Positions 31,550-50,445 of a stretch of DNA of 64,000 nucleotides are shown here, in pieces. Source of the stretch: Rhodoferax ferrireducens (GTDB taxonomy: Bacteria > Pseudomonadota > Gammaproteobacteria > Burkholderiales > Burkholderiaceae_C); assembly GCF_003347515.1 (NCBI RefSeq), contig NZ_QEII01000297.1, positions 62,001 through 126,000 of the forward strand. Reading direction: 5' to 3'. Position numbers and translations under genes: made by a program. The notes under the pieces are model-generated. The model was given only the letters and a program-made list of their open reading frames with translations, made no database searches and had not been told where the DNA came from. The first letter of the stretch is position 1. Every line of letters starts with the position of its first letter.

Positions 31550-31558
31550 GAGATTGCC

Positions 31559-33230: not shown

Positions 33231-33239
33231 GGAATGAAA

Positions 33240-33246: not shown

Positions 33247-33354
33247 AAAAATTGGACTGAACCACTATAGCCCGGCCATCCCTGCCAATGTCTTGGTGGC
33301 AAAACCTACCGTATGACGGTTGAGGTCTTGCAGCGCTTGGGAGACGGATATGCT

Positions 33355-33409
33355 GCTATTTTTATAGCTGCTTGCGAACTATCCATAAGGGATAGAGGCC
33401 ACTTTGCTT
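33355..33409 (-). repeat. Dispersed mini-repeat copy A (intergenic)
   Basis: This copy reads, on the plus strand, GCTATTTTTATAGCTGCTTG, then ATAAGGGATAGAGGCC. It is the clearest match to a motif also seen at 60750-60800, 55254-55310 and inside three housekeeping genes. I recall similar elements from Comamonadaceae genomes. Confidence 0.6.
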
Positions 33410-33466
33410 CATGAAAATATGAAGAGGATCTGTTTGGACTGCAACGTGATGGACGCTGGCGGCAGG

Positions 33467-33546
33467 AGCGATCCGTGGCGCCTGGATTGCCGCGCTGCGC
33501 TCGCAATGACGGTCCAATGACAGGCCCATGACAGGCCCATGACGGG
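33467..33546. repeat. REP-like element and 11-bp tandem repeat
   Basis: The stretch at 33467-33512 contains the widespread element whose complement begins CGTCATTGCGAGCGCAGCGC. It is followed at 33517-33546 by the unit ATGACAGGCCC, twice complete and once partial. Together with the mini-repeat it fills the 345-base gap between the CPBP gene and fdx. Confidence 0.55.
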
Positions 33547-33575
33547 TTTGTGCAGCGGGAACGCGGAATGAGCCC

Positions 33576-33911
33576 TCAATGCTCCCGCGCATGGTTGCGC
33601 GTGTGGCGCGGAAACTCCACCGTGATGTCGGTATCTTTGAGCTTGACGCAACAGGCCAGCCGCGACTGCGCTTCCAGGCCCCAGGCGTGGTCGAGCTGGT
33701 CGTTCTCTTCGTCGTCCGGTTCTTTCAGCGAGGCGCCGCCTTCTCGCACGTACACATGGCAGGTGGCACACGCCGCCACCATCTCACAGGCATGCTCAAT
33801 CGCCACACCAGCGGTAAGCAGACTCTCGCACAGCGAGGCACCGCGCTTGACTTCGAAGTCGCGGCCTTCGGGGCACAAGTCGGGGTGAGGCAGTAGGTGA
33901 ATGTGCGGCAT
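33576..33911 (-). CDS. fdx: [2Fe-2S] ferredoxin of the ISC system
   Basis: A 111-residue adrenodoxin-like ferredoxin. The cluster ligands are C-x5-C-x2-C in HACEMVAACATCHVYV and a later cysteine in SRLACCVK. In the ISC pathway it delivers electrons for cluster building on IscU. It lies 48 bases downstream of hscA and is the last gene of the isc operon. Confidence 0.93.
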   Translation of the reverse strand: MPHIHLLPHPDLCPEGRDFEVKRGASLCESLLTAGVAIEHACEMVAACATCHVYVREGGASLKEPDDEENDQLDHAWGLEAQSRLACCVKLKDTDITVEFPRHTRNHAREH

Positions 33912-33959
33912 GTGAGAGCTTGGTAGGTTTGGGACGAGGAACCGGCGCGAGGAATAGAC

Positions 33960-35834
<1,875 letters not shown>

Positions 35835-35871
35835 GTTGGGACCTTAGGTGAGGAGCGTGGGGGTCATGTCT

Positions 35872-36195
35872 TTAGACGGCGAAGCTCTCGCCACAGCCGC
35901 AGTTGGCTTTGGCGTTCGGGTTGTTGAACTTGAAGCCTTCGTTCAGGCCTTCGCGCACGAAGTCGAGTTCGGTGCCGGCCAGCATGCCCAGGCTGCGCGG
36001 GTCGACGATGACTTTCACGCCGTGAGTCTCGAAGCATTCGTCATCGGCGTTGGCCGCATCGACGAATTCGAGTGCGTAGGCAAAGCCGTTACAGCCGCTG
36101 GTCTTGACCGCCAGGCGCAGGCCGATGCCGCTGCCGCGTTTGGCCAGGGATTTCTCGACGTGGCGCGCCGCCGCAGGAGTCAAGGACACACTCAT
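35872..36195 (-). CDS. iscA: A-type Fe-S carrier IscA
   Basis: A 107-residue A-type carrier with the three ligand cysteines in [12 protein letters not shown] and CGCGESF. It transfers clusters to apoproteins. Its sequence is that of true IscA and differs from the second carrier gene 11 bases upstream. Confidence 0.95.
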
Positions 36196-36206
36196 GACAT
36201 CACCTC

Positions 36207-36584
36207 CTAAACAGAGAAAGAACTGCCGCAGCCACAGGTGGTCTGGGCATTGGGGTTTTGAATGACAAAGCGCGAGCCTTCCAGGCCATCCTCAAAGTCA
36301 ACCCGGGCACCCAACACGTACTGCAGGCTCATGGCATCCACCACCAGGGCAACCCCTTCGGTGACGATTTGCGTATCGTCTTCGGCGACCTGATCGTCAA
36401 AGGCAAAACCGTAAGAGAAACCCGAGCAGCCGCCACCGGTGACGTACAAGCGCAGCTTGAGGTTGGGGTTGCCCTCCTCCACGATCAAGTCGGCCACTTT
36501 GGCGGCGGCCGAGGGGGTGAATTCCAGCTGGCTGGGCATGACGCCGGGCAGGGTGGGACTGGCAATGGTCAGAGCTGCTTCCAT
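36207..36584 (-). CDS. A-type Fe-S carrier, ErpA-like
   Basis: A 125-residue second A-type carrier with cysteines in [14 protein letters not shown] and [10 protein letters not shown]. The sequence is closer to ErpA/NifIscA-type carriers than to the neighbouring IscA. The ATG at 36584 follows AAGGAATTC; the upstream open frame is the shadow of iscU. Together with the gene at 44761 the window holds three A-type carriers. Confidence 0.93.
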
Positions 36585-36633
36585 TTTGAATTCCTTGGTT
36601 GGGTATGCGGTGTGGCGGTGGATGGGGGGAGAC

Positions 36634-37068
36634 TCAACGCGTGCTGGAGGCGCAGGCGGGCTGTTCGGAGACCAGGGTGCCGCCGCCGGCGGGGTGGCGC
36701 GAACGGAAGTCGGCGACCGCGGCCTTGATGGCGTCTTCGGCCAGGATCGAGCAATGAATCTTGACGGGCGGCAGGGCCAGCTCTTCAGCGATGTCGGCGT
36801 TCTTGATGGCCAGCGCCTCGTCCAGCGTGCGCCCACGCACCCATTCCGTGACCAGCGAACTCGACGCGATGGCCGAGCCGCAGCCGTAGGTCTTGAACTT
36901 GGCGTCCTCGATCACGCCTTGGGCATTAACGCGGATCTGCAGCCGCATCACATCACCGCAGGCAGGCGCGCCCACCATGCCGGTGCCGATGCTGTCGTCG
37001 CCGGCCTCGAAGGCGCCGACGTTGCGTGGGTTTTCGTAGTGGTCAACGACCTTGTCACTGTATGCCAT
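36634..37068 (-). CDS. iscU: Fe-S cluster scaffold IscU
   Basis: A 144-residue scaffold protein with the three cluster cysteines in [19 protein letters not shown] and [11 protein letters not shown]. The HscA recognition motif LPPVK is intact. The start at 37068 ([16 protein letters not shown]) is the conserved one. No NifU is seen in this window, so IscU probably serves as the nitrogenase scaffold, which is inference. Confidence 0.96.
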
Positions 37069-37118
37069 GGAGTTCTCCGTATCGGGTGTGGGGGTGGACG
37101 GGCTGGTTGAGCCGGGAC

Positions 37119-38363
37119 TCAGTGTTCTGACCACTGGATGGAGTTGAGATCGACGCCGGCCTGCACCATGTCCCACAGCGGGCTCATGGCGCGCAGTTTG
37201 GTGACAACCTGGGTGACTTGTTCGATCGTGAAATCAATGTCTTCAACCGTCGTGAAGCGGCCGATGGAGAAGCGCACCGAGCTGTGGGCCAGCTCGTCGC
37301 TGCGGCCCATGGCGCGCAGCACATAGCTGGGCTCCAGACTGGCCGAGGTGCAGGCCGAACCCGAGGACACGGCCACGCCCTTGATCCCCATCAAAAGCGA
37401 CTCGCCCTCGACGTAGTTGAAGCTGGCATTCAGGTAGTGCACGGCCCGGTGTTGTTCGTCGCCGTTGACCACGACCGCGTCCATCTTCTGGAAGCCGGCC
37501 CAGAGCCGGTCGCGCAGCGCGCTGATGCGGGCATTGTCAGCCACCATGTTTTCGCGCGCCAGCCAGAAGGCCTCGCCCATGCCGACGATCTGGTGCGTGG
37601 GCAAGGTGCCCGAGCGCATGCCACGCTCGTGGCCACCACCATGCATCTGCGCTTCGATGCGCACGCGGGGTTTGCGCCGCACGTAGAGTGCGCCAACGCC
37701 TTTGGGACCGTAGATTTTGTGCGCCGACAGCGACATCATGTCGATCGGCAATTGATCCAGATCAATGGCGACCTTGCCCGCTGCCTGCGCGGCATCGACA
37801 TGAAACAGCACGCCCTTGGCGCGGCAAATGGCACCGATGGCAGCCACGTCCTGAATGACGCCGGTTTCGTTGTTGACGAACATCACCGAGGCCAGGATGG
37901 TGTCGGGGCGCAACGCGGCTTCAAACACCGCCAGATCGAGCAGCCCGCTGGGCAGCACCGACAACACGGTGACCTCAAAGCCCTCGCGCTCCAGCTCACG
38001 CATGCTGTCCAGCACCGCCTTGTGCTCGGTCGCCAGCGTGATCAGGTGCTTGCCCTTGCCTTTGTAGAAATGGGCGGCGCCTTTGATGGCCAGGTTGTTC
38101 GACTCGGTGGCGCCCGAGGTCCAGGCGATCTCGCGCGGGTCGGCGTTGATCAGTGAACAAACCTGCTCACGGGCCAGCTCCACGGCCTCGTCGGCGGCCC
38201 AGCCGTAGGCATGGGAGCGGCTGGCGGGGTTGCCATAGATTTCCGTCAAATAGGGAATCATCTTGCTCGCCACGCGCCGATCTACCGGTGTGGTCGCCGC
38301 GTAGTCGAGGTACACAGGGGGGGCGGCGCGGAAATGGGCTTTGTCGAGGCTAGGGTCCGTCAT
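37119..38363 (-). CDS. iscS: Cysteine desulfurase IscS
   Basis: A 414-residue PLP enzyme giving sulfur for cluster assembly. The PLP lysine is in [14 protein letters not shown] and the active-site cysteine loop is [14 protein letters not shown]. The start at 38363 is downstream of the predicted sigma-54 transcript start near 38393; a longer frame would begin at the transcript start itself. A second desulfurase, nifS, lies at 47595. This copy leads the isc operon. Confidence 0.95.
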
Positions 38364-38403
38364 GGCTGGCTCCTGAGAAAAGAGGTAGGTCACCCTTCCT
38401 ACC

Positions 38404-38418
38404 GCAATTTCGGTGCCA
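38404..38418 (-). promoter_or_regulatory. Sigma-54 promoter of the isc operon
   Basis: The minus strand reads TGGCACCGAAATTGC, a perfect -24/-12 promoter. It predicts a start near 38393, 30 bases before the iscS ATG. I could not find a canonical TGT-N10-ACA site in the shared region to 38562; the nearest is TGT and ACA with fourteen bases between at 38502-38521. Confidence 0.83.
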
Positions 38419-38562
38419 TGCGTTTTGTCGCATCAATCAAGGCTCTCGTCGCAACGATTGTTGCTTTTGTGAGCGAGCGGCATCGCATGTCCCAACGACC
38501 TTGTCTCGTTTGTCGGTAACAGCATGTTTCAGTCGCGTCCGTTGTGTCGCTTTGGGTATTTT

Positions 38563-38578
38563 TGGTACGTTTCTTGCA
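38563..38578 (+). promoter_or_regulatory. Sigma-54 promoter candidate of nifA
   Basis: TGGTACGTTTCTTGCA matches the sigma-54 consensus apart from T in place of C at the fourth base. It points toward nifA, about 110 bases before the ATG. It would make nifA subject to NtrC or to its own product. The 334-base gap between iscS and nifA thus carries two divergent sigma-54 promoters. An inverted repeat (GCACAG, CTGTGT) lies near 38601. Confidence 0.68.
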
Positions 38579-38697
38579 CGAATTACGCCCAGAGGCCGTT
38601 GCACAGTCGCTGTGTCCCATTCCTGGTGCGTACCAGTGTCCGGGCGCGGTGTAATTTGATGTAGCAGGCCCGATGTTGCACACAACTGGGGCTCTAC

Positions 38698-40404
38698 ATG
38701 GTGAACACACAAATGACGGAAGCTCGCCGCGAGCTCAACGCGATTTATGAAGTCAGCAAGACGCTGGCCACTTCGCTGGACGTTGACAAGACCTTTCGCG
38801 AAGCCTTGAACTACCTGTTGCACGCCTTCGACTGGCGGCGCGCCTTTGTGGTGCTGGGCGAACCCGAGGGCCGGCTGCGCGGCATGTGCGCCGTCGGCCT
38901 CACACGCGAGGAACAGCAACGCCTGCAGTTCCAGTCCGGCGAAGGCATCGTCGGGCGCGTCTACGCCAACGGCATCCAGGTCATTGTGCCCGACGTGCAC
39001 GCCGAGCCGCTGTTCCTCAATCGCACCGGTGGCGCCGACCAGACCCCGGGCGTGCCCGTGGCCATGCTGGTCACCCCCATTCGCGCCGACCGCCGAACCA
39101 TCGGTGTGTTGGCCATTGATTGCCTCAACCCCGGCGAGCGCCGCGGCTTCTCGGACGACCTGCAGTTACTGAAAATGGTGGCCACGCTGATGGGGCAGGC
39201 GCTGCTCTTGCACCGCAGCGTCAGCGCCGCGCACAACACCATGCAGGATGAGGTGCGCCGCAAGGACAAGATGCTCAAGCCCAGCCAGCAGATTGATCAG
39301 GTGGTGGGCGTCTCCGCACCGATGCAGGAAGTTTTCGACCAGGTCCATCAGGTCGCACCGGCCCGCACCACCGTGCTGCTGCGCGGCGAGAGCGGCACCG
39401 GCAAGGAAGTGATTGCGCGCGCCATTCATAACCTTTCGCCGCGCAAGCGCGAGGCCTTCGTGCGGGTCAATTGCGCCGCGCTGACCGAGTCGCTGCTGGA
39501 GAGCGAATTGTTCGGCCACGAAAAAGGCGCCTACACCGGCGCACTGGGGCAACGCAAGGGCCGCTTCGAGCTGTCGCACGGCGGCACCTTGTTCCTCGAC
39601 GAAATCGGCGACATCTCGGCCTCCTTCCAGGCCAAGCTGCTGCGCGTGCTGCAGGAGCGTGAGTTCGAGCGCGTTGGCGGCACGGCCGTGGTGAAGGTGG
39701 ACGTGCGCCTGATTCTTGCCACCAATCGCAACCTGGAACGCATGGTGCAGGCCGGCGAGTTCCGCGCCGATCTCTACTACCGTATCAACGTGGTCAGCAT
39801 CCAGCTGCCGCCGTTGCGCGAACGGCGCGAGGACATCCCGGCCATGGCGCAGCATTTTCTGGAGCGTTTCAACCAGGAAAATGTGCGCACCACGCAATTC
39901 AGCCCGGCCGCCATGCGCGTGCTCGCCAGCTGCTACTGGCCCGGCAATGTGCGGGAGCTGGAAAACTGCGTGGAGCGCACCGCCACCATGGCGCATGACG
40001 ACGTCATCACCGACCTGGCCTTTCCGTGCCAGGGCAACCGCTGCCTGACCCAGGTGCTGCACCACATCGACCGCGAAGATGCGGTGCGCCCTGCCCGTCT
40101 GGCCGATATTCCCATCACCGAAGTGCCAATGGCACCGGCGCACCCTCATCATGAGGCCGCACCGCCATTCCCGGCCGATGTCACACCAGCCTCGGTTGCG
40201 GTCGCCGATGACGCCGCTACGGTCGACCATGATGACGCCGTGGTGCCCGACGACGGCAAGCCCGACGGCGAACGTGATCGCCTGGTCTGGGCCATGGAGC
40301 GCTGCGGCTGGGTTCAGGCCAAGGCCGCGCGCCTGCTGAAAATATCGCCACGCCAGATGGGCTACGCGCTGCAAAAGAACGGGATTGAAGTCAGAAAGTT
40401 TTGA
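38698..40404 (+). CDS. nifA: Nitrogen fixation transcriptional activator NifA
   Basis: A 568-residue sigma-54 activator: N-terminal GAF domain (about 20-170), AAA+ domain with Walker A GESGTGKE at 230-237, the sigma-54 contact loop GAYTGA at 277-282 (GAFTGA in most), Walker B at 297-302, and a C-terminal Fis-type helix-turn-helix (AKAARLLKISPRQMGYALQ). Between AAA+ and DNA-binding domains C412-x11-C424-x19-C444-x4-C449 matches the motif of oxygen-sensitive NifA proteins. It should activate the nifV, isc and nifB operons when oxygen is low. Confidence 0.96.
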   Translation: MVNTQMTEARRELNAIYEVSKTLATSLDVDKTFREALNYLLHAFDWRRAFVVLGEPEGRLRGMCAVGLTREEQQRLQFQSGEGIVGRVYANGIQVIVPDVHAEPLFLNRTGGADQTPGVPVAMLVTPIRADRRTIGVLAIDCLNPGERRGFSDDLQLLKMVATLMGQALLLHRSVSAAHNTMQDEVRRKDKMLKPSQQIDQVVGVSAPMQEVFDQVHQVAPARTTVLLRGESGTGKEVIARAIHNLSPRKREAFVRVNCAALTESLLESELFGHEKGAYTGALGQRKGRFELSHGGTLFLDEIGDISASFQAKLLRVLQEREFERVGGTAVVKVDVRLILATNRNLERMVQAGEFRADLYYRINVVSIQLPPLRERREDIPAMAQHFLERFNQENVRTTQFSPAAMRVLASCYWPGNVRELENCVERTATMAHDDVITDLAFPCQGNRCLTQVLHHIDREDAVRPARLADIPITEVPMAPAHPHHEAAPPFPADVTPASVAVADDAATVDHDDAVVPDDGKPDGERDRLVWAMERCGWVQAKAARLLKISPRQMGYALQKNGIEVRKF

Positions 40405-40736
40405 AACCGCGTGACACCCCGAACTCGATGCCCATATTCAGCGGGTCGGGGTCGTGTTCTACGAGCGGAAAGCCTGGGGTTCATAGTTTCATCGCCGGCA
40501 TTGGTGGGTGGCAGGATCAAGGTAGCTTCGCAGTGGGAGTGGTCTTTCGGCAACCTCGCCCAATTCCGGATTCAGGCTGTTTGACGCCTAGAATCGACTG
40601 AAAACAATCAGCGGTGTTTGTCGAATTCTTTATACCTGTATGAAAGTTTGAAAAAACCGCCAAAACCAAGGCTGCCAGCCGTTCTCAGGAGGAATTCATG
40701 ACCAGTTTATCCCGCAGGTTTTGCGGTATACATTAC
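40405..40736. other. Gap between nifA and the cassette array
   Basis: No gene is supported here. Near the right end a 27-codon frame at 40698-40781 has an excellent AGGAGG ribosome site but runs across the first cassette junction, so it may be the remnant of an original gene or attachment region. I see no integrase gene and cannot identify an attI site with confidence. Confidence 0.4.
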
Positions 40737-40770
40737 GTTATGCAACACAAACCTGATTCGGAGAGTTCAT

Positions 40771-41256
40771 ATGTCTTTTGAAGATTCCCAGCAGACTGAA
40801 CGCGTGACCCATGCAACATTGGTGTTCGAGCGCGAGGTTCCCACGACCGTCGAGAAGGTATTTGCAGCTTTCGAAAACGCAAAAATTCGGTCGGAGTGGA
40901 GTGCGCCATCAGACACCGCCACCATCATCTATGACCAAGAAGATTTTCGAGAAGGAGGCGAGGATCGTTACCGTTGCGGCTCTAAATCTAACCCCAACAT
41001 TCACGGTACTACCCGCTACCTTGAAATCATCCCAGATCGTAGAATTGTCTCCAGCGAGACGATCTCGATGGATGGAAAGCGCCTCTGCGCTTCACTTATT
41101 ACTCTTGAACTTGCGCAATCTGGCAGCAGAACAAAGCTACGAAGCACCAGCCAAGTTGCGTCATTCATTGGTCAGGACATGATCAAGGGAACTGAGACCG
41201 GAAACAATGGTTCACTGGATAGCCTGGTCAACTACTTTTCCAGAGATCAAGCGTGA
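40771..41256 (+). CDS. SRPBCC/AHSA1-family protein (cassette 1)
   Basis: A 161-residue protein with the START-like hydrophobic-cavity fold of the AHSA1 group (FEREVPTTVEKVFAAFENAK, then YDQEDFREGGEDRYRCGS). Such proteins bind small hydrophobic ligands and are common in integron cassettes. It starts 34 bases after the GTTATGC core with GGAGAG upstream. Its base composition is visibly less GC-rich than the nif genes around it. Function unknown. Confidence 0.82.
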   Translation: MSFEDSQQTERVTHATLVFEREVPTTVEKVFAAFENAKIRSEWSAPSDTATIIYDQEDFREGGEDRYRCGSKSNPNIHGTTRYLEIIPDRRIVSSETISMDGKRLCASLITLELAQSGSRTKLRSTSQVASFIGQDMIKGTETGNNGSLDSLVNYFSRDQA

Positions 41257-41281
41257 ATCGTGTGCTTTGGGCGCGAGTGCT

Positions 41282-41368
41282 GCATAACCTGTTGCTCGTC
41301 ACGGACACGCAGCAGCAGGTTGCCGCTTCACGGCGCATGCTGCGTGCCCGACAGCGCCGACGTTAGGT
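41282..41368 (+). repeat. attC site of cassette 1
   Basis: 87 bases from inverse core GCATAAC to core GTTAGGT. The interior holds a strong stem, CACGCAGCA with TGCTGCGTG, around an inner GCCGCTTCACGGC. The layout of paired outer boxes with an imperfect inner stem is that of integron attC sites. Confidence 0.8.
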
Positions 41369-41383
41369 CGCTCAATTACCCAC

Positions 41384-41857
41384 ATGCACTCCACCGATTC
41401 CAAAGACAACGCAGGTGTGATTGCACCCGCTCCTGTCCTGTACGGCGCAGCCCTCGCCATCGGGCTTGCAGCGGAGCAAATTGCACCAACCCAATTGCTG
41501 TCGTTTCCGATCAGTGCTTGGCTAGGGGCTGCCTTCATCGCAGTCGCCGTAGCCATAGTGGCCTCAGCATTCAAGGCCCTCGCTCAAGCGCACACAGCTT
41601 TCGATGCACGGAAGTCCACCACCAGGATTGTCACAACCGGAGCGTTCCGCCTCAGTCGCAATCCAACGTACTTGTCCCTCACGCTCCTGCTCATCGGCGT
41701 CGCGTTCGCAACCTCGTCGCTCTGGGTGTTGGTGTCGGTCATTCCGGCCGTCGCGGCAACTCAGTGGGGCGTAATCCTACGAGAAGAGCGTTACCTCAAA
41801 GCAAAGTTCGGTGAAGGCTACAGTAGCTATGCCTCGAAGGTTCGTCGTTGGCTGTGA
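41384..41857 (+). CDS. Isoprenylcysteine carboxyl methyltransferase-like membrane protein (cassette 2)
   Basis: A 157-residue protein with about four membrane segments. The C-terminal half carries the ICMT/PEMT pattern: TGAFRLSRNPTYLSLTLL, then LREERYLKAKFGEGYSSYAS. Family members methylate prenylcysteine, phospholipids or isoprenoids. The gene starts 22 bases after the GTTAGGT core and stops eight bases before its inverse core. Confidence 0.85.
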   Translation: MHSTDSKDNAGVIAPAPVLYGAALAIGLAAEQIAPTQLLSFPISAWLGAAFIAVAVAIVASAFKALAQAHTAFDARKSTTRIVTTGAFRLSRNPTYLSLTLLLIGVAFATSSLWVLVSVIPAVAATQWGVILREERYLKAKFGEGYSSYASKVRRWL

Positions 41858-41864
41858 CGCAGCG

Positions 41865-41884
41865 ACCTAACTCAAACGTTAACT
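41865..41884 (+). repeat. Collapsed attC site of cassette 2
   Basis: Only twenty bases separate the start of the inverse core ACCTAAC and the end of the next core GTTAACT, with TCAAAC between. Outer boxes are kept and the usual hairpin interior is missing, as if deleted. Such a site may no longer recombine, which would lock cassettes 2 and 3 together. Confidence 0.65.
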
Positions 41885-41887
41885 GGC

Positions 41888-42187
41888 ATGAAAAAGGTCC
41901 TTTGGCCAACAATCTGGTTAGCGGCAATCGCTTTACTCGCAGCGGGCCTTGCTGCGATTTCAGAAATAGGTTTCTGGTGGTCATTCTTGATCGTTGCCGG
42001 TGCAATCCTCATCAACGGATGGGTGGCAACTTTTGAAGATGATCTACCGGGCAGCTTTAACAATCCCGATGGCACATCTACACCCCGTTACGCGATTGTT
42101 GCGGGTTGGGGTTTTCGGGTTCTAGGCGCTGTGCTTGCGCTCTTGTGCATTGGTGTGCTGTCCCTTCACTTCTTCGGTTCACCATGA
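41888..42187 (+). CDS. Small membrane protein of unknown function (cassette 3)
   Basis: A 99-residue protein with three likely membrane segments (residues about 4-24, 27-45 and 75-95) and a polar loop containing EDDLPGSFNNPDGT. I do not recognise a family, though similar short membrane proteins are typical cassette cargo. The ATG lies three bases after the GTTAACT core, so the leader is very short. Confidence 0.72.
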   Translation: MKKVLWPTIWLAAIALLAAGLAAISEIGFWWSFLIVAGAILINGWVATFEDDLPGSFNNPDGTSTPRYAIVAGWGFRVLGAVLALLCIGVLSLHFFGSP

Positions 42188-42197
42188 CGCCACGACC

Positions 42198-42299
42198 AGT
42201 TAACCTGTTGATCGAATGGACCACCAACGGCGACCTACACTGCCGCCATTCTTCAACAGTGAGTGCGCCGTTGTCTTCCACTCATCGCCAACGTTGGGC
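42198..42299 (+). repeat. attC site of cassette 3
   Basis: 102 bases from inverse core AGTTAAC to core GTTGGGC. The interior pairs CAACGGCG with CGCCGTTG and, within it, CACTG with CAGTG, with outer GTTG and CAAC boxes. The first base pairs outside the core also match the start of cassette 3. Confidence 0.78.
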
Positions 42300-42320
42300 A
42301 CTATAGAGCATTACGTCCAG

Positions 42321-42776
42321 ATGCCACTCAAATACTTTGCCTCCTTGGGAACCGCCAAGATTGTGCTCTGGTGCTATCTCATCTGGTATCTCGTCACGGT
42401 GGTCAACCACTTTGATCCGTCGCCAGCAATTTGGCTCAACTCTCTCGGTATCAGTGCCGTCATCGGCATCGCGCTCGTCCTGAGCGTTGGTGGTCAAGCC
42501 CTTCGCGTCGCCGATCGTTGGCAAACCATTCGCCTATTTCTCATGCCATTCTGCGTATCCAGCTTTTCATCCCTGATCAAGGGGCATGGCTTCGTTCTCA
42601 TCGTGCCGCCCAATCGCTCGGAACAACTCGTCTCATTCGGGGCTTGCGCCGCGTTCCTGCTTGTCGTCTTGGTTCTCAAGAGAATCAATCGCGTGGTGCA
42701 CGCCCAGCCAGGCGCTTCAGCTGCCCGACCACCTTTGTCATCTTTGTCGCATCACGGACAGCAGACCCTGAAATAG
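42321..42776 (+). CDS. Membrane protein of unknown function (cassette 4)
   Basis: A 151-residue protein with three or four hydrophobic segments. It starts 21 bases after the GTTGGGC core. A near-match to the expected inverse core, GCCCAGC at 42702, lies inside the frame, and the last 25 residues (about [14 protein letters not shown] onward) have a different composition. The original gene may have ended earlier, with its tail now read from DNA that belonged to the nifB upstream region. Confidence 0.6.
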
Positions 42777-42798
42777 CGCGGCATCCCGGCAACGCCTG

Positions 42799-42814
42799 TG
42801 TGCCACATGCTACA
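42799..42814. promoter_or_regulatory. NifA upstream activator sequence for nifB
   Basis: TGT at 42799 and ACA at 42812 with exactly ten bases between, the canonical NifA site. It is about 60 bases upstream of the predicted nifB transcript start, closer than usual but in the accepted orientation-independent form. Confidence 0.7.
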
Positions 42815-42843
42815 AAGCCAAGGCAAAACCACCGGTTTTCGGG

Positions 42844-42859
42844 TGGCATGAATATAGCT
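42844..42859 (+). promoter_or_regulatory. Sigma-54 promoter of the nifB operon
   Basis: TGGCATGAATATAGCT keeps the -24 TGGCAT and the -12 GC dinucleotide at the correct spacing, with A for T once in TTGC. It predicts a start near 42870, about 34 bases before the nifB ATG. Confidence 0.72.
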
Positions 42860-42903
42860 ATAGAACCCTTATGCGGCCATGGTCGGTCGCGAAAAGGGTT
42901 TCC

Positions 42904-44499
42904 ATGCACGCAAGCGCAAACACCGGTTCATTGCCAGCTACGACTTATGTCAGTATCGGCCAGATCAAATCACTTGGGGCCGCACTCGAACTGCCGAAAA
43001 GCAGTGGTGGCTGCGATACGCTCGATGACGAAAGCAAGGCCACTTGCGGAACGTCAGCCGGCCCGGACGACATGCCGCAAGAGATCTGGGACAAGGTCAA
43101 GAACCACCCTTGCTACTCCGAAGAAGCCCACCACCACTACGCCCGCATGCACGTTGCCGTCGCGCCGGCCTGCAACATCCAGTGCAACTACTGCAATCGC
43201 AAGTACGACTGCAGCAACGAGTCGCGCCCCGGCGTGGTCTCGCAGAAACTCACGCCCGAGCAGGCCGTCAAGAAGGTCGTGGCCGTAGCCAGCGAGATTC
43301 CGCAGATGACGGTGCTAGGCATCGCCGGCCCCGGTGATGCACTGGCCAACCCGAAAAAGACTTTCGACACCTTCCGCATGTTGCAGGAGCAGGCGCCTGA
43401 CATCAAGCTGTGCATGTCCACCAACGGCTTGGCATTGCCGGAGCTGGTCGATGAAATCTGCCAGTACAACATCGACCACGTGACTATCACCATCAACATG
43501 GTGGACCCGGCGGTGGGCGAAAAGATCTATCCCTGGATCTTCTGGAACCACAAGCGTGTCACCGGCTACGAAGCCTCCAAGATCCTGCACGAGCAGCAGA
43601 TGAAGGGCTTGGAGATGCTCACCGCGCGCGGCGTGCTGACCAAGATCAACTCGGTGCTGATCCCCGGCATCAACGACGAACACCTGATCGAAGTGAACCG
43701 CGAGGTGAAGAAGCGCGGCGCCTTCCTGCACAACATCATGCCCCTGATCTCCGAAGCGGAGCACGGCACCGTGTTCGGCCTGACCGGCCAGCGCGGCCCG
43801 TCGGCTTCCGAGCTCAAGGCGGTGCAGGACGCCTGCATGGGCGGCGCCAACCTGATGCGCCACTGCCGCCAGTGCCGTGCCGATGCCGTTGGCCTGCTGG
43901 GTGAAGACCGCAGCGAAGAGTTCACCATGGACAAGCTGGAGCAGATGGAAGTCGTCTATGACCTCGACAAGCGCAAGACCTACCAGGACAAGGTCGAAGT
44001 CGAACGCCAGGCCCAGCATGCCGCCAAGCAGGAAGCATTGGCCACAGCCAGCGCAATGACGGTCGGCGACGACCTCCAGGTCCTGGTCGCTGTGGCCACC
44101 AAGGGTGGCGGTCGTGTCAACGAGCACTTTGGTCATGTCACCGAATTTCAGGTGTTCCAGGTCTCCTCTACGGAGGCGCTGTTTGTGGGCCACCGCCGGG
44201 TCGACCAGTATTGCCAGGGCGGCGAGGGTGACGACGAACAACTGCCCTCGGTCGTGCGCGCCATCAACGACTGTCACGCGGTACTGGTGGCCAAGATTGG
44301 CGCCTGCCCGAAAGACGACCTCACCGCAGCTGGCATCGAAGCCGTCGATCAGTATGTGGGCGAGTTCATTGAAAAAGCCGCGTTGAGCTGGTTCAACGAC
44401 TACCGCAGTCGTGTCGCCAGCGGCGCGGTAACGCACCAGAACCGCGGTGACGCCCAGATTCGTCAGGGCGCTTTTACCAGCGTTGCCGAAGCAGCCTGA
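42904..44499 (+). CDS. nifB: FeMo-cofactor biosynthesis protein NifB
   Basis: A 531-residue radical SAM enzyme that builds NifB-co, the 8Fe-9S-C precursor of FeMo-cofactor. The SAM cluster motif is C90-x3-C94-x2-C97 in [17 protein letters not shown] NifX-like domain occupies the C-terminal third (from about residue 395). The ATG at 42904 has AAAAGGG upstream; an earlier in-frame ATG at 42871 lies at the predicted transcript start. First gene of the long plus-strand operon. Confidence 0.97.
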
Positions 44500-44537
44500 A
44501 GTTACACATCTATTACCCACCATAAAGGAGAGCCACC

Positions 44538-44732
44538 ATGCCACTCAAAATCATCGCGTCCACCTGCACCGCTTGTTCCGCCTGCGAGCCGGAATGCCCT
44601 AACGTCGCCATCCGCGAAAAAAATGGCACCTACGTCATTGACGTCAAAAAGTGCACCGACTGCGAGGGTCACTTTGACGAACCCCAGTGCATCGCCGTGT
44701 GCCCCGTCGACGGCTGCATCGTCAAAGCCTGA
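44538..44732 (+). CDS. 2[4Fe-4S] ferredoxin, NifB-associated (FdxN type)
   Basis: A 64-residue ferredoxin with two cysteine groups, [12 protein letters not shown] and [18 protein letters not shown]. The insertion between the second and third cysteines of the second group is typical of nif/fdxN ferredoxins. In other diazotrophs this protein donates electrons to NifB. It follows nifB by 38 bases with AAAGGAG upstream. Confidence 0.93.
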
Positions 44733-44760
44733 CCCTTCATCACCAGAGACCTTCAACATC

Positions 44761-45168
44761 ATGTTGCCCAACGTCACCATCACCCCCGCCGCGGCGAAGT
44801 TCATCAACCGCATCGTGCGTTTCTCCGGTCTGCCCGCCGGCGCGGGCTTGCGCCTGGCCGTGACCCCGGGCGGCTGCTCCGGCTACTCGTCCGAGTTCAG
44901 CGCCGAAGCCGCGCCGGCGGCGGGCGAGCAATTGCTGGAGGTCGGTGGCGTACGCCTGTTTCTGGGTGCCGAGAGCCGCTTGATGCTACAAGGCATCACG
45001 ATTGACTTCACCGAGACCGCCACCCAGTCGGGCCTGTCCTTCATCGACCCGAACAAGGAAGCCTGTGCTTGCAGCACTGCCGAGACGGCGCCCAAGGTCG
45101 GCGTGACCAAGATCGAAATCAGCGCCATTGGTCGCGGCCGTCCGGCTGCGCCCATTCTGGCCTCCTGA
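44761..45168 (+). CDS. Nif-linked IscA/HesB-like protein
   Basis: A 135-residue A-type carrier relative. The first cysteine is in PGGCSGYSSEF and the C-terminal pair in EACACSTAE, a C-A-C arrangement where most carriers have C-G-C. About 25 residues follow the pair, unlike IscA where the pair is near the end. It lies between the ferredoxin and TPR genes of the nifB operon and probably carries clusters for nitrogenase proteins. Confidence 0.85.
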   Translation: MLPNVTITPAAAKFINRIVRFSGLPAGAGLRLAVTPGGCSGYSSEFSAEAAPAAGEQLLEVGGVRLFLGAESRLMLQGITIDFTETATQSGLSFIDPNKEACACSTAETAPKVGVTKIEISAIGRGRPAAPILAS

Positions 45169-45185
45169 GCAAAGCAGGCATCACC

Positions 45186-45755
45186 ATGGATGCGATCAAC
45201 CCTGGCTTTGATGACGACTGGTCGGCCTTTGCCGCCAGCGCCCTCGGCGGGGGCTTGAGCCCGCAAGTGGAGGCGCTGATTCAGCAAGCCGGGCTGCTGC
45301 GCCATCGTCCGCTGGAGGCGCTGCCCTTGCTGCAGCAGGCTCGCGCCGCTGCGCCAAGCCACCCGTCGCCTTTGATCGCGCTCTATCGCTTTTACTTCTA
45401 TGGCCACCAATTGACCCAGGCCCGCGCCGTGGCCGAAGATGCGCTGGCCATTGCGCGCACTGCCTTGGGCTCCAATTTTGGCGATGAGGCGCCCTGCGAC
45501 GACGCGGCACGCCACGACGCTGCCGTGCGCTTTTATCTGTTCACACTGAAAGGCCTGGCTTATCTGAACCTGCGCCTGGGCGACCTGGACGAGGCACGCC
45601 TGATGCTGGGTGAATTGCGCCGGCTTGACCCGCAAGACCGTGTTGGCGGCGCCTTGCTGTCGCACGTCCTCGTTCGCCACGAAAAGGGGGATGACACTGA
45701 AACCGGAACGGCCTACCCGGTACGCGGCTGGAGCGGCACCGGGCCGCGCGCATGA
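45186..45755 (+). CDS. Nif-associated TPR-like protein (paralogue 2)
   Basis: A 189-residue helical repeat protein paralogous to the one at 22442-22921: RFYLFTLKGLAYLNLRLGD and LRRLDPQDRVGG align with that protein's core. The C-terminal 25 residues differ in composition. It overlaps the LRV protein gene as ATGA. Its placement behind nifB and the A-type carrier suggests a helper role in cofactor or cluster assembly; nothing more can be claimed. Confidence 0.78.
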   Translation: MDAINPGFDDDWSAFAASALGGGLSPQVEALIQQAGLLRHRPLEALPLLQQARAAAPSHPSPLIALYRFYFYGHQLTQARAVAEDALAIARTALGSNFGDEAPCDDAARHDAAVRFYLFTLKGLAYLNLRLGDLDEARLMLGELRRLDPQDRVGGALLSHVLVRHEKGDDTETGTAYPVRGWSGTGPRA

Positions 45756-46585
45756 TGAACGCCGCCGTCATCACCCCCACCCCGCGCGTTGGCAATCTGC
45801 GCGCGCCGGCGGGCGACATCCCGTCGCAGCACTGGCAGGGCGGGCCGGTCAACTGCGGCAATTGCTGCTACATCGATCTGCGTGCACTGCCCGGCGAGCA
45901 GGGTTGCGAACCCGGCCATGCCTGTATGCAGGATGTTTATGCGCTACGCATTGACCGCTTTTTCCGCTGGCATCCGGCACGGGGCGATGAACAACTGACC
46001 CATGCCTATTTTGAGGTGCGGGCCATCGCCGCGCGCCACGCCAGCGTGTTTCGCCTGCCCACCTTGATTGACGACCCGGATGAAACGGTGCGCCTGCAGA
46101 TCGCGCTGCGCCTGCCACTGGCGCAACTGATACGGCTGGCCAAGGACCCCCACCGCGAGGTGCGCATCCGTGTCGCGCAGCGCCTCGCACCCATCGCACT
46201 GGCAGCGCTACGGGATGACCCGGATTACGGCGTGCGTGAGCTGGTCGCGCTGCGTCTGCCGCTCGCCATATTGCCGACCATGGCGACGGACGCTGACCGC
46301 GCCGTGCGCATGCGCGTCGCACAGCGCCTGGAGATGCCTGCGCTCTTGCGCATGGCGGACGACAGCGCGCCGGAGGTGCGCCGCATTGTGGCCGAGCGCC
46401 TGCCCGCGCCGCTGCTGTCGCGCCTGGCCAGTGATGCCGACTGGCGCGTGCGCTGGGAAGTGGCGCAACGCGCCGATGCCGCCACGCTGGACACGCTGCG
46501 TAATGACGAAGATGAGGAAGTGCGCCAGACCGTACGAGAACGGCAGGCGCGTGAAATAACCCGGATTGGAGGTGCCCATGGCTGA
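45752..46585 (+). CDS. 4Fe-4S-binding leucine-rich repeat variant (LRV) protein
   Basis: A 277-residue protein with an N-terminal cysteine cluster (NCGNCCYIDL and CEPGHAC) followed by about eight helical repeats of the VRIRVAQRLAP type. This is the architecture of the Azotobacter LRV protein, which lies near nifB there and binds a [4Fe-4S] cluster; its role is unknown. The end overlaps the nifZ start by eight bases. Confidence 0.9.
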   Translation: MMNAAVITPTPRVGNLRAPAGDIPSQHWQGGPVNCGNCCYIDLRALPGEQGCEPGHACMQDVYALRIDRFFRWHPARGDEQLTHAYFEVRAIAARHASVFRLPTLIDDPDETVRLQIALRLPLAQLIRLAKDPHREVRIRVAQRLAPIALAALRDDPDYGVRELVALRLPLAILPTMATDADRAVRMRVAQRLEMPALLRMADDSAPEVRRIVAERLPAPLLSRLASDADWRVRWEVAQRADAATLDTLRNDEDEEVRQTVRERQAREITRIGGAHG

Positions 46586-46940
46586 TATCAACCGCGACGA
46601 TGATGTGATCGAACTGGCCTCCCCGCCCCGCTTCAGCTACGGCGAGCGGGTGGTGGCGCGTTCGGTGGTGCGTAACGACGGCACCTACAACGGCAAAGAC
46701 ATCGGCGAGGTGCTGGTGAACAAGGGTGAGATCGGTTACGTCATCAACATCAATACCTTTCTGCAGCAGTTCTACATCTACGCGGTGGACTTCGTCGATT
46801 CCGGCCACCGCGTCGGCATGCGCGCCAAGGAGCTTTGCACGCTGGACAACCTGCCCGACGACGTGCTGGAGCAGCTGGGGGGTAAATCCGCCGCGCTGCA
46901 AGGACTCGGAAACGCCACGCCACTTGAGGAGAAGCCATGA
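46578..46940 (+). CDS. nifZ: Nitrogen fixation protein NifZ
   Basis: A 120-residue NifZ with the domain core RFSYGERVVARSVVRNDGTY and GEIGYVININTFLQQFYIYAV. NifZ helps form the second P-cluster of the MoFe protein. The ATG at 46578 is preceded by GGAGG. It overlaps the next gene as ATGA, and that gene encodes a second NifZ-domain protein. Confidence 0.93.
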   Translation: MADINRDDDVIELASPPRFSYGERVVARSVVRNDGTYNGKDIGEVLVNKGEIGYVININTFLQQFYIYAVDFVDSGHRVGMRAKELCTLDNLPDDVLEQLGGKSAALQGLGNATPLEEKP

Positions 46941-47224
46941 ATGCAATGACCGGTATCGAACCCCGTGAACCTGCTTATGCCTGGGGCCAGCGCGTCATTG
47001 CGCTGGACGACCTGGTGAACGACGGCAGCTACCCCGAGCGCCCGGTGGACGCGATGCTGGCCGCACGCGGCTCGATCGGCGAAATCGTCAACATCGGCCA
47101 TGCGCAAGACTTGAACGAACCGGTGTACCTGGTGCAGTTCGAGGGCTGCGTGGTCGGCTGCCTGGAAATTGAACTGGTTCCCGCGCCGCATGGCCTGCTG
47201 CCCGAGACTGGGGAGCTGATGTGA
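46937..47224 (+). CDS. Second NifZ-domain protein
   Basis: A 95-residue protein aligned with NifZ: WGQRVIALDDLVNDGSYPE, then GSIGEIVNIGHAQDLNEPVY and VGCLEIELVP. It is shorter than nifZ and may have arisen by tandem duplication, since the genes overlap by four bases. A division of labour in P-cluster maturation is possible but not shown. Confidence 0.85.
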   Translation: MNAMTGIEPREPAYAWGQRVIALDDLVNDGSYPERPVDAMLAARGSIGEIVNIGHAQDLNEPVYLVQFEGCVVGCLEIELVPAPHGLLPETGELM

Positions 47225-47574
47225 ACATGACGGCTGCTGCTGTGACTGCACCAGCCAGCGGCCAGGTGCGGGACCTGATGCAGCACCGCCTGGAGCGGGC
47301 GCTGCGGGAGCGCGTGCGCTACCGCTATGTGCAGCCGCTCGTGTTGCGTGAGGGTGAGAACTTTCGCATCCAAAGCCCGTGCTGCTCGCGCAATGTGGAC
47401 CCCAGTGGCGGCCTGATCGATATCGCGTTGCTGATCCCACATACAGGAGGCAACTGGTGCCTGTGTGCGCGTGACCATGTCAACAACACGTGGGTCTCGC
47501 GCTTTCAGGATGAGCCGCTGGACGTCTTGCTGGACCTGCTGTGTGTCGACGACGAACGCCAGTTCTGGCCCTGA
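47221..47574 (+). CDS. Nif-operon protein of unknown function
   Basis: A 117-residue protein I cannot assign. It has an Arg-rich N-terminal helix (LMQHRLERALRERVRYRYVQ), then FRIQSPCCSRNVD with paired cysteines and a GGNWCLCARDH segment with two more, which might bind metal. A GTG at 47221 overlaps the preceding stop and has GGGGAG upstream; an ATG at 47227 is the alternative start. It sits between the NifZ-domain genes and nifS. Confidence 0.68.
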   Translation: MNMTAAAVTAPASGQVRDLMQHRLERALRERVRYRYVQPLVLREGENFRIQSPCCSRNVDPSGGLIDIALLIPHTGGNWCLCARDHVNNTWVSRFQDEPLDVLLDLLCVDDERQFWP

Positions 47575-47594
47575 ACTGCATCGCGGCCATCACC

Positions 47595-48743
47595 ATGATT
47601 TACCTCGACCACAACGCCACCACGCCGCCCGCACCTGCGGTCATCGCGGCCATGCTGCCGGTGCTGTCCAACCTGTGGGCCAACAGCTCGTCGCAGCACG
47701 GGCCGGGGCAGGAGGCCAAGCGCGCGTTAGGCACTGCGCGCGCCACCGTGGCACGCGTATTGGGCTGCAAACCGGTCGAAGTCATCTTTACCAGCGGCGC
47801 CACCGAATCCAACCACATGGCGGTGCGCGGGCTGCTCGCCATGGCCGCTCCCGGCCGTCGTCGCGTCGTGTTCAGCAGTGTTGAGCATGCGGGCCACTTG
47901 CGCCTGGCGCGTGCGCTTGCCGACAGCGGTGTTCAAGTGGACTTCATGCCCGTGCTGGCGAACGGCACGCTCGATCTGCCGGCGGCAAAAGCGCTGATTG
48001 GCCCGGACGTGGCCCTGGTCTCGCTCATGGCGGCCAATAACGAGACCGGCGTGCTGATGCCGGTGAATGAGGTCGCGGCACTCACGCAGGCCGCCGGGGC
48101 GCTGTTGCATGTGGACGCCACCCAGTTCATCGGCAAGCTGCCGTTTAATTTTTCCAGCTTGGGTGCGGACGCGGTGTCGCTGTCGGCCCACAAGCTGCAG
48201 GGCCCCAAGGGCGTGGGCGCGCTGTTGTTGCGCCAAGGCATCCCTTTTGCACCGCAAACGCTGGGCAGCCAGGAACGCGGTCGGCGCGGCGGTACCGAGA
48301 ACCTGGCCGGGATCGTCGGATTGGCGGCGGCGCTGGAGCTGTTGGGTGATATCGGCCTGGAGGCCGCGCGTTTAACCATGCTGCGCGACACGCTTGAAAG
48401 CGGACTAGCCCGCGCACTGCCAGACACCCACATCTGGTGCCAAAACGTGGCCCGCCTGCCCGGCACCAGTTATCTGCGCTTTGGCCAACTGTCGGTTGAT
48501 GTGGTGTTGCAGCGCCTGGAGCGCCTGGGCGTGGCGGCATCCAGCGGCGCGGCCTGCTCCTCCGGCGGCAGTGAACCCTCGCATGTGCTGACGGCCATGG
48601 GTGTGCCGGCCGAAGAAGCGCTGGCCGCCGTACGCCTGTCGCTGGGCCGCACCAGCACCCTTGAAGACGTGAGCTACCTGTTGAATGCGCTGCCGCCCTT
48701 GTTGGCGCCGCTGCTGCATGAAGAAATATTGACTGCTCCTTAA
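47595..48743 (+). CDS. nifS: Cysteine desulfurase NifS
   Basis: A 382-residue PLP enzyme. The N-terminus MIYLDHNATTPPAPAV, the lysine loop SLSAHKLQGPKGVG and the cysteine loop SSGAACSSGGSEPSHVL identify a class I desulfurase. It is clearly distinct from iscS in this window (for example HVDATQFIGK where IscS has [10 protein letters not shown]). It should feed sulfur to nitrogenase cluster assembly. Confidence 0.92.
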   Translation: MIYLDHNATTPPAPAVIAAMLPVLSNLWANSSSQHGPGQEAKRALGTARATVARVLGCKPVEVIFTSGATESNHMAVRGLLAMAAPGRRRVVFSSVEHAGHLRLARALADSGVQVDFMPVLANGTLDLPAAKALIGPDVALVSLMAANNETGVLMPVNEVAALTQAAGALLHVDATQFIGKLPFNFSSLGADAVSLSAHKLQGPKGVGALLLRQGIPFAPQTLGSQERGRRGGTENLAGIVGLAAALELLGDIGLEAARLTMLRDTLESGLARALPDTHIWCQNVARLPGTSYLRFGQLSVDVVLQRLERLGVAASSGAACSSGGSEPSHVLTAMGVPAEEALAAVRLSLGRTSTLEDVSYLLNALPPLLAPLLHEEILTAP

Positions 48744-48782
48744 AGCGAACCTTGAACCCATGTTTACACCCCACAGGAGCCG

Positions 48783-49013
48783 ATGATGAAACTGATGATC
48801 CGCAAAGACAGCAAGGGCACCTTGACTGGTTATGTGCCCAAAAAAGATCTGGAGGAACCCATTGTTTCCATGGTCAACCCCGGCATGTGGGGCGGTCTTG
48901 TGACACTGGGCAACGGCTGGCAGTTCGATCTGCCGGCCATGCCCGCCGACACGCCACTGCCCATCACGGTAGAAGCGCGTCGCATGCCGCTGACTGAGGA
49001 CGCTGGAGATTAA
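48783..49013 (+). CDS. nifT: Nitrogen fixation protein NifT/FixU
   Basis: A 76-residue NifT with the family sequence MKLMIRKDSKGTLTGYVPKK and the WGGLVTLGNGWQ core. Its biochemical role is unsettled. It follows nifS by 39 bases with AGGAG upstream. Two ATGs one codon apart are possible starts. Confidence 0.92.
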   Translation: MMKLMIRKDSKGTLTGYVPKKDLEEPIVSMVNPGMWGGLVTLGNGWQFDLPAMPADTPLPITVEARRMPLTEDAGD

Positions 49014-49015
49014 TC

Positions 49016-49276
49016 ATGGCACTCACCCCTGACTATCTGCGCAGCGCTTGTGAAGTGATCGGTGCCGCGTCCACCTTGTGCGACGCGGCGTCGATTCTGC
49101 GGGCGCGCGACCCGGCCCTGCGCGTTGTGCTGGTGGACGCGATGGACATGCGCGATGAAACCCCGGCCCAGTGGCTGGGCTCGCGCCGGGTCTACCTGGC
49201 CACCTCCAACGGCCATTGCTGGTCCATCACCGAACAACCTGAAGAAGCGACGGCGCTGATTCTCACGCAGGACTGA
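49016..49276 (+). CDS. Small nif-operon protein of unknown function
   Basis: An 86-residue protein beginning MALTPDYLRSACEVIGAAST. No motif is recognised; two cysteines near residues 12 and 22 and a compact alpha/beta pattern are all that can be said. It lies two bases after nifT and two before the DegT-like gene, so it is translated with them. Confidence 0.65.
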   Translation: MALTPDYLRSACEVIGAASTLCDAASILRARDPALRVVLVDAMDMRDETPAQWLGSRRVYLATSNGHCWSITEQPEEATALILTQD

Positions 49277-49278
49277 CC

Positions 49279-50445
49279 ATGGAAATCGATGCCATCTCCC
49301 TGTTTGAACCCGAGTGCGGTGGCCGCGAGATTGAGCTCGTCTGTGCCGTGCTGCAGTCGACGCGCTGGGGCGACGGCCCCATGCTTGAATCGTTTGAACA
49401 AGCCTTTGCCGGCTGGGTCGGACGCAAGCACGCGGTGGCCGTCGGCAGTGGCACGCTCGGTGTCTGGATTGCACTGCGCGCCATGGGCATTGGCCCCGGC
49501 GACGAGGTCATCTGCACCTCACACGCCTGGCACCAGGTGGCACAAGCCATCACCTTGACCGGCGCCACGCCGGTGTTCGCCGACATCAACTACTGGACCG
49601 GCAGCCTGAGCCCCGAAAAAGCCGCACTCAAGATCAGCCCCCGTACCCGCGCCATCCTGGCCGGCAACACCAACGGCCACCCGGCCGACTGGGAGCCGTT
49701 GCGCGCCTTGGCCGATGCGCATGAATTGGCGCTCATTGAAGACAGCAGCGAGGCCCTGGGCTCGCGCTACAAGGGCCAAACCGTGGGCACTTTCGGCGAC
49801 GTTTCGGTGTTCGATTTCTCGGCGCCCTCGGCCCTGTGCACCGGCGAAGGCGGCATGCTGGTCACCGATGACGATGAACTGGTGCATGAGCTGCGTTACC
49901 TGCGCCAGCGTCGCATTGCTGACCGCAACTCGGTCTCGGTCGGCTCCCGGGTGCCCCTGCAGGCCGGCATGAGCGAGCTCACCGCCGCACTGGGCCTGGC
50001 CCAGCTGGCCGGTCTGGATGAACGTCTGGCCCAGCGTCTGGAGGTGGTGGCCTGGTACCAGGAGCACATGCAGAGTTTTGAAGGCGTCAAGCCGCCCTAC
50101 ATCAGCGAGGACGTGGACGAAGTGCACTGGATGCTTTATGTGGTGCACCTGGGCAAACGTTTTTCGGGCAGTTCCCGGGCCCAGATGATCGACGACCTGC
50201 ACTCGTCTGGCATCGAAACCGTCGCCTACAGCCATCCGCTGCACCAGCAGTTTTTCTACATGAACACAGGCGATGGCATCGGCCGCCAACGCGGCCAACT
50301 GCTGCGCGACACCGACCGCATCGCTGACCGCGCGTTGGCGCTGCCGCTGCACACCCAGCTTGATGAAATCCAGGTCAAGTACATCGTCACAACGCTCAAG
50401 GACACCGCGACCAACGTGGGTGCCGGGGCGGCTATTTACCTTTAA
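49279..50445 (+). CDS. DegT/DnrJ/EryC1-like protein lacking the catalytic lysine
   Basis: A 388-residue fold-type I PLP-family protein. The framework matches sugar aminotransferases (VAVGSGTLGVWIALRAMGIG, LALIEDSSEALGSRYKGQ, CTGEGGMLVTDD), but the Schiff-base segment reads FDFSAPSALCTGEGG, so the lysine expected at position 184 is a serine. It cannot be a standard aminotransferase. ColD, where His replaces this Lys, shows the fold can do other PLP chemistry. Its position in a nif operon hints at a role near nitrogenase that I cannot name. Confidence 0.82.
   Translation: MEIDAISLFEPECGGREIELVCAVLQSTRWGDGPMLESFEQAFAGWVGRKHAVAVGSGTLGVWIALRAMGIGPGDEVICTSHAWHQVAQAITLTGATPVFADINYWTGSLSPEKAALKISPRTRAILAGNTNGHPADWEPLRALADAHELALIEDSSEALGSRYKGQTVGTFGDVSVFDFSAPSALCTGEGGMLVTDDDELVHELRYLRQRRIADRNSVSVGSRVPLQAGMSELTAALGLAQLAGLDERLAQRLEVVAWYQEHMQSFEGVKPPYISEDVDEVHWMLYVVHLGKRFSGSSRAQMIDDLHSSGIETVAYSHPLHQQFFYMNTGDGIGRQRGQLLRDTDRIADRALALPLHTQLDEIQVKYIVTTLKDTATNVGAGAAIYL

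Follow-up and report, generated by a model that had tools for sequence, protein, structure and literature searches.

Integrons are usually described as one platform, in which the integrase gene intI, the attachment site attI and an array of gene cassettes lie together. Cassettes outside a complete integron occur at attG insertion sites, and the attI region of class 1 integrons, attI1, contains ORF-11, a short open reading frame with a strong ribosome-binding site. Clusters of attC sites lacking an integrase are known as CALIN, and according to PMC9024848 they have two or more attC sites, with small ORFs as the cassettes and no integrase within reach. The same source states that attI is poorly described outside class 1 and hence is not detected by IntegronFinder 2.0, so that attI heads of CALIN-like arrays would be overlooked. 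Another departure from the usual arrangement is given by the DeltaattI-type cassettes of class 1 and class 2 integrons, in which attI lies away from its usual place beside intI; as they are presented in PMC12901181, a partial attI there replaces attC downstream of the ORF.

The array considered here lies between nifA and nifB in Rhodoferax ferrireducens. The source genome is denoted G000, other G labels denote the genomes compared and L labels their loci; the window, that is, the whole analysed stretch of 64,000 nucleotides, is G000:C297:62001-126000. The array shares with sedentary chromosomal integrons an attI leader and unidirectional cassettes, and sister copies of its leader keep LexA-type palindromes; it differs from them in that the window is without intI and that several attI loci per genome are present in the genus. 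Of the features of a complete integron, attI at the head and attC between cassettes were found, and intI beside attI was not. The array also resembles cassettes at attG sites in lying outside a complete integron, but an attI-family leader precedes it. By the description of CALIN in PMC9024848, the window agrees in having two attC sites at close spacing, about 0.8 kb (one of them, attC1, with filters off only), small ORFs as cassettes and no integrase nearby, and it differs in being headed by an attI-type site. The family to which this site belongs is likewise distinct from DeltaattI-type cassettes as the latter are characterised in PMC12901181, having a long upstream attI leader and dispersed chromosomal loci. 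The locus is probably an integrase-less integron, which would have been loaded by IntI acting in trans or since lost, and which would now be largely frozen.

The array is flanked on the left by nifA (38698-40404, forward strand, 568 aa; NCBIfam TIGR01817, 662.6 bits with a cut-off of 528.85) and on the right by nifB (42871-44499, forward strand, 542 aa; NCBIfam TIGR01290, 672.1 bits with a cut-off of 343.65). Upstream of nifB on the same strand stand the NifA upstream activator site TGT-N10-ACA at 42745-42760, also seen in G214, G260, G328 and G354, and the sigma-54 -24/-12 promoter of nifB, GG-N10-GC, at 42845-42860, likewise seen in relatives; both are intact. Comparison of the nifA-nifB interval in relatives, which the earlier note had proposed, showed a short gap in G214, G260 and G338 and other genes in G328. 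In G328 the gap (L266 1671-3957) is occupied by a nucleotidyltransferase/substrate-binding pair and by a PIN-domain gene, upstream of which lies a small partner. The nucleotidyltransferase gene, which is intact in G328 and matches Pfam Polbeta and NTP_transf_2, is represented in the window by a remnant of its 3' end at 40414-40496 (forward strand, 90% identical to G328 over 83 bp), and this remnant is an older insertion into the gap. An extension of the integron to the left was considered and ruled out, since the sequence left of 40405 is nifA and 40414-40496 is the nucleotidyltransferase remnant.

Sites of attC type were found in the nifB regions of two of 19 relatives. Those of G270 lie inside the nifA-nifB gap on the reverse strand (L071 5381-6248), that of G346 upstream of nifB (L273 1605-1674), and both are accompanied by other cassettes than those of the window. 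An enrichment of cassettes upstream of nifB (two of 19 relatives, G270 on the other strand) is suggestive only. Together with the G328 genes and the remnant, the attC sites in G270 and G346 indicate that the nifA-nifB gap accepts insertions. As a negative control, 24 of the 80 named nifB loci (423 kb) were scanned with default filters, and neither attC nor attI came up among matches with E up to 0.5. The attI unit is absent from the nif relatives examined and would therefore have reached the nif gap as a dispersed unit.

The analysis confirmed that 40737-42299 carries three integron cassettes, after which a fourth begins. The three units that the earlier note had placed there were located, with GTT cores at 40737, 41362 and 41878 and complementary AAC ends at 41288, 41871 and 42204. 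The complementarity of each unit with its own end amounts to 8, 11 and 9 bases in cassettes 1, 2 and 3 (sum 28); of the values of 7, 10 and 9 given previously, only the third was reproduced. These complementarities had been called very unlikely by chance, which is borne out for their summed length but not for the mere succession of three: three chained units, each having at least 7 bases, arose in 18 of 400 dinucleotide-shuffled versions of the window (both strands), whereas a sum of at least 27 arose in none of 400, the maximum being 25. The 18 shuffles are what can be said for ordinary small genes with accidental boundary complementarity, an explanation made extremely improbable by the summed complementarity, by the matches to the attC and attI models (R1 and R2, described below) and by the homologous cassettes found elsewhere with the same boundary. 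With looser spacing, own-end complementarity alone was not significant, and chains of at least three appeared in 36 of 200 shuffles.

Cassette 1 (40737-41361, forward strand, as are all the cassettes) carries an ORF at 40771-41256 for an AHSA1-family protein (Pfam AHSA1, 48.9 bits, cut-off 22.1), as had been proposed. Cassette 2 (41362-41877) carries an ORF at 41384-41857 for a PEMT/ICMT-like methyltransferase; it had earlier been assigned as ICMT-like, and its match exceeds the cut-off of Pfam PEMT (61.5 bits against 25) but not that of Pfam ICMT. Cassette 3 (41878-42292) has an ORF at 41888-42187 encoding a 99-aa membrane protein. A homolog of cassette 2 in G335 has 85% DNA identity, with homology from the same GTT, and stands behind a different attC; a homolog of cassette 3 in G349 (83% identity in DNA, 86% in amino acids) is the first cassette directly behind attI, again with homology from GTT. 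Both cassettes are found in other contexts with the boundary at the core, as mobile cassettes are. Pairwise dN/dS is 0.27 in cassette 2 and 0.12 in cassette 3, so that both retained genes bear a sign of purifying selection. The attC sites and these recurring cassettes bear out the proposal of integron cassettes in nifA orientation within the nifA-nifB gap.

The attC sites were searched for with a covariance model, R1, trained on attC sites from arrays beside the intI genes of the family; 28 distinct candidates were cut to 25, three odd ones being removed by eye. In the 25 training sites both stems are paired in 96.5% of cells, and the covariation score is 0.450 as against 0.154 in shuffles. 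The search, which the earlier note had suggested as a check, returned attC3 (42198-42299, forward strand, 102 bases) at 32.0 bits (match 42199-42299, E 3.2e-5 over the whole window) and, without filters, attC1 (41282-41368, forward strand, 87 bases) at 20.0 bits (E 0.0018 over 7 kb), so the hairpin lengths of 87 and 102 bases reported previously were correct. The next-best match, with filters off over the 7 kb, scored 6.3 bits. R1 did not report attC1 across the window under default filters, and as such filters overlook weak sites of this kind, absences of attC are soft. Stretches like attC1, 75-90% identical, are present elsewhere in the genus. Folding as single-strand DNA gave z-scores of -1.8 (forward strand) and -2.2 (reverse strand) for attC1 and of -3.3 and -2.8 for attC3; the lowest-energy folds of both are without the full attC stem with paired cores. 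A strict scan for RYYYAAC...GTTRRRY passed none of the window's sites, the cores of which deviate from this pattern, and against Rfam the interval 39.5-44 kb had just two matches, both irrelevant and below threshold. The genome-wide search for an integrase and matching attC sites, also recommended earlier, yielded no integrase above the cut-off and three further attC matches, at C241:767-834 (52.2 bits), C303:900-998 (38.8 bits) and C269:48483-48554 (26.1 bits).

Between cassettes 2 and 3 only a remnant, attC2, is present (41865-41884, forward strand, ACCTAAC-TCAAAC-GTTAACT), with no hairpin on folding. In it the R'' core is fused to the last bases ahead of the R' core, ACCTAAC being followed directly by TCAAACGTTAACT. 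Since the attC sites of the family often have a stretch similar to TCAAACGTTAACT before GTT at their right end, the interior of attC2 seems to have been lost, and a short TAAC repeat could have mediated the deletion. Cassette 4 (42293-42735, forward strand, right limit approximate) was recognised by a homolog in G307 and lacks its 3' end and attC; its ORF (42321-42776) reads into the NifA upstream activator site of nifB. In the G307 homolog (53% amino acid identity) an attC of 25.2 bits overlaps the 3' end, and no attC was found after cassette 4 in the window by R1 with filters off over 7 kb. Comparison with relatives places the return to native sequence after cassette 4 at 42725-42738. The last attC would have been removed by a deletion halting just before the nifB activator site, and with attC2 collapsed and the last attC deleted the array would now be largely frozen.

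A DNA search of the gap against 89 genomes of the genus revealed that about 200 bp directly before the first GTT are a dispersed repeat. The corresponding leader in the window (40530-40736, forward strand) begins with GCAGTGGGAGTGGTC and leads to the core G/TT at 40737; its left end and repeats were placed by eye from the alignment, and the search for the left end tolerated 8 mismatches in 19. A model of this leader, R2, trained on 24 copies that include neither the window nor L241-L244 or L246-L250, matches the window at 40627-40741 with 88.6 bits (E 7.8e-26), a score that is not independent because the training copies had been found through the window's own sequence. The independent test is given by sites adjacent to intI. 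The leader adjoins intact intI in G331, G280, G272 and G269, the intI-adjacent sites of which were absent from the training, and R2 detects all four. R2 also marks sites at a distance of 38-60 bp from nine intI genes, whole or partial, and always on their 5' side, which validates R2 as an attI model.

Judged by this model, 40530-40736 is an attI-type site heading the array and a member of a dispersed family. The earlier note described an attC cluster lacking an integrase, correctly as regards the integrase, but the locus has more than attC sites, the attI-type head having been missed; its observation is confirmed and its interpretation partly supported. The head also bears on whether cassette circles were inserted between nifA and nifB at a secondary site of attG type, with no attI involved. 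IntI1 is reported to use attG sites, as mentioned in PMC12901181, but an attG is a core without a preceding attI, and the 207 bp ahead of the first cassette belong to the attI family, which leaves such insertion very improbable.

The final part of most aligned copies of the leader comprises a ribosome-binding site of AGGAGG type, a pair of direct repeats and ACATTAC/GTT. The window copy is one 19-base direct-repeat unit short of most others, and this attI may be non-functional. Its short leader ORF with the AGGAGG ribosome-binding site (40698-40781, forward strand) extends into the beginning of cassette 1, where it shares 11 bases with the first part of the cassette gene. By the rule of the script, 50 of the 65 sequences tested possess both a ribosome-binding site and a start codon, and in 38 of these 50 the start is at -58. 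The leader ORF is similar to ORF-11 of attI1, but in its commonest form, seen in 23 of the 65 sequences and all among the 38, it stops at +2 of the core and is 20 aa long. A scan for sigma-70 promoters gave three weak matches with 1.4 expected and was not informative. The genes of cassettes 2 and 3 are possibly translated with the help of this leader ORF, and their transcription might start from the leader or occur by putative read-through from nifA.

In the genus, R2 detected 96 sites in 49 of 89 genomes, with up to seven per genome and six in G000; the total of 96, like that of the 76 matches examined for intI and attC, holds at least one double, because L279 and L300 in G269, one attI at the ends of two contigs, are very probably an assembly split. 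L300, an apparent orphan, very probably belongs on this arrangement to the same site as L279, the half that bears intI; it is outside the 60 well-flanked copies. At these 60, intI was absent in 46, an N-terminal stub in nine, a fragment in three and full in two, when L312 (an IntI-like segment of 34%) and L295 (an IS91-associated recombinase) are counted as having none. An attC was present on the same strand within 2.5 kb in 38 of the 76 copies (36 of 68 where 700 bp or more were available) at a median distance of 528 bp, on the opposite strand in none of the 76, and no downstream attC was found within 2.5 kb in the other 38. These attC results include matches with E up to 0.5; L276-L284 were outside those scans, L276, L277 and L280 being scanned separately. 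The five other attI-like sites of G000 had no attC nearby with filters off. Across the family, 47 of 200 genomes, from 41 of 141 genera, yielded 102 R2 sites, of which nine belong to G000 and G121, two genomes of one genus. Nine of the 102 adjoin intI, which is partial in two of them (G095 and G110); 26 are in genomes with intI elsewhere and 67 in genomes without intI at the search threshold. No description of a dispersed or orphan attI family was found in the literature searched, in which one poorly targeted query is weak evidence of absence.

Many window-like copies share the left end GCAGCGGGAGCGGTC, beyond which nothing is conserved as judged by eye; beyond the last attC the units have only short similarities and no common right end. 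On the single contig of G152, an orphan attI with a cassette and attC lies about 0.97 Mb from a complete integron. Its leader region has 83.5% identity over 261 bp with that of the integron, and a 28-aa intI stub is retained at the orphan. The LexA-type palindromes are kept in leaders in which intI is a stub only (L250 1506-1640 and L292). At two G121 loci, an IS91-family element with zinc-binding and Y2 transposase domains and a tyrosine recombinase starts exactly at the attI core, and the first bases of this element follow the core in G321 and G349 as well; the loci concerned are L291 1658-4012, L295 (reverse strand), L220 from 1672 and L221.

No integron integrase exceeded the TIGR02249 cut-off in the whole G000 assembly (best score 80.5 against 265 bits), and the only traces of intI in positions 30001-50000 of the window were two IntI-like segments at chance level (E 0.32 and 0.48), in agreement with the earlier remark that no integrase was in view. 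The assembly (6.87 Mb, 4.3% contamination) consists of 324 contigs and is 98.6% complete, so an intI on a missing contig or a plasmid is possible; at other loci intI may be hidden by contig breaks, as many assemblies are fragmented. A complete sedentary integron could instead have decayed in place between nifA and nifB, its intI being deleted and the remainder left as a fossil CALIN. Loading in trans would then be unnecessary, and this scenario overlaps with that branch of the preferred reading in which the integrase has since been lost. It accords with the decay of attC2 and the last attC, and with intI stubs or fragments of varied length beside 12 of the 60 well-flanked attI copies, which indicate that loss of intI is common in the genus. 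The nif locus is nevertheless without any trace of intI, the 24 named nifB loci are without attI or attC, and elsewhere intI-less loci common to several species hold different first cassettes, so that decay in place is unlikely, if still to be reckoned with. On the reading of an integrase-less integron, cassettes would have been loaded at the attI core by an IntI supplied in trans, encoded either on another replicon or by a gene since lost.

Evidence on the exchange of cassettes came from 17 pairs of loci with similar upstream flanks, picked by eye from a longer list, many of the other entries of which are due to intI itself. None of the 17 pairs has the same first cassette at both loci. Such exchange at sister loci is indirect evidence on whether attI serves as a target of IntI. 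In eight pairs (G000/G279, G349/G310, G310/G308, G321/G308, G321/G346, G121/G253, G350/G280 and G252/G280) homology runs through the flank and attI and ends at 0 to +13 of the core, although it spans only 0.3-0.4 kb in G321/G308 and G321/G346; seven pairs lose it 20-70 bp before the core is reached, and in two it covers only 72-79 bp of flank. Neither G000 nor G279 contains an IntI match at E 1e-30. G327 and G319 have left and right flanks in common with different sequence between them. The homology between G349, G310 and G308 extends without a break across the intI stub and the gene next to it, which suggests that the cassettes changed after the truncation. This change would be explained most simply by IntI acting in trans; a different cassette behind a core could also result from homologous recombination between segments that carry attI.

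Sharing of sequence from the core onwards was seen in 10 pairs among the 64 copies with downstream sequence: six through the IS91-family element or its first bases, a duplicate in G307, and the trio L226, L281 and L293. The first cassette of L226 (G308, intI-less) is, from the core, that of L281 (G272, full intI; 85% over 112 bp) and of L293 (G321, broken intI; 82% over 268 bp), a pattern that transfer between intI-bearing and intI-less sites would leave. In G307, the attI-cassette-attC units L233 and L234, 200 kb apart on one contig, are 99.4% identical over 716 bp, and no IntI match was found in this genome at E 1e-30. Such duplicates, together with the IS91-family element exactly at the core of two attI copies of G121 and a duplicated stub-attI-IS block there (98% identical over 2650 bp), suggest another route, by which the unit would have arrived through homologous recombination or one-ended IS91-family transposition with no role of IntI at the locus. 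However, no IS91-type gene was among the ORFs read in the nif gap, and identity of the G307 duplicates ends exactly at the attC core, as expected from IntI exchange; this route is considered distinctly unlikely.

A wider proposal is a distributed integron, in which chromosomes of Rhodoferax and other genera of the family would each carry several intI-less attI sites, with cassette uptake and exchange continuing through one or an occasional integrase in trans. It is put forward tentatively, as a possibility of somewhat less than even standing; if true, a cassette could be delivered next to host operons such as nif.

The cassettes themselves are ordinary; the surprise lies in attI sites that are dispersed, have no integrase and show cassette turnover. 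If such scattered sites persist after their integrase has gone and go on changing cassettes, capture would be possible at many places on the chromosome, and some clusters filed as decayed attC clusters would be docking sites equipped with a leader and a ribosome-binding site. R2 provides a model for counting such attI sites, and the proposal offers a testable explanation for cassettes beside host operons, here those of nitrogen fixation.
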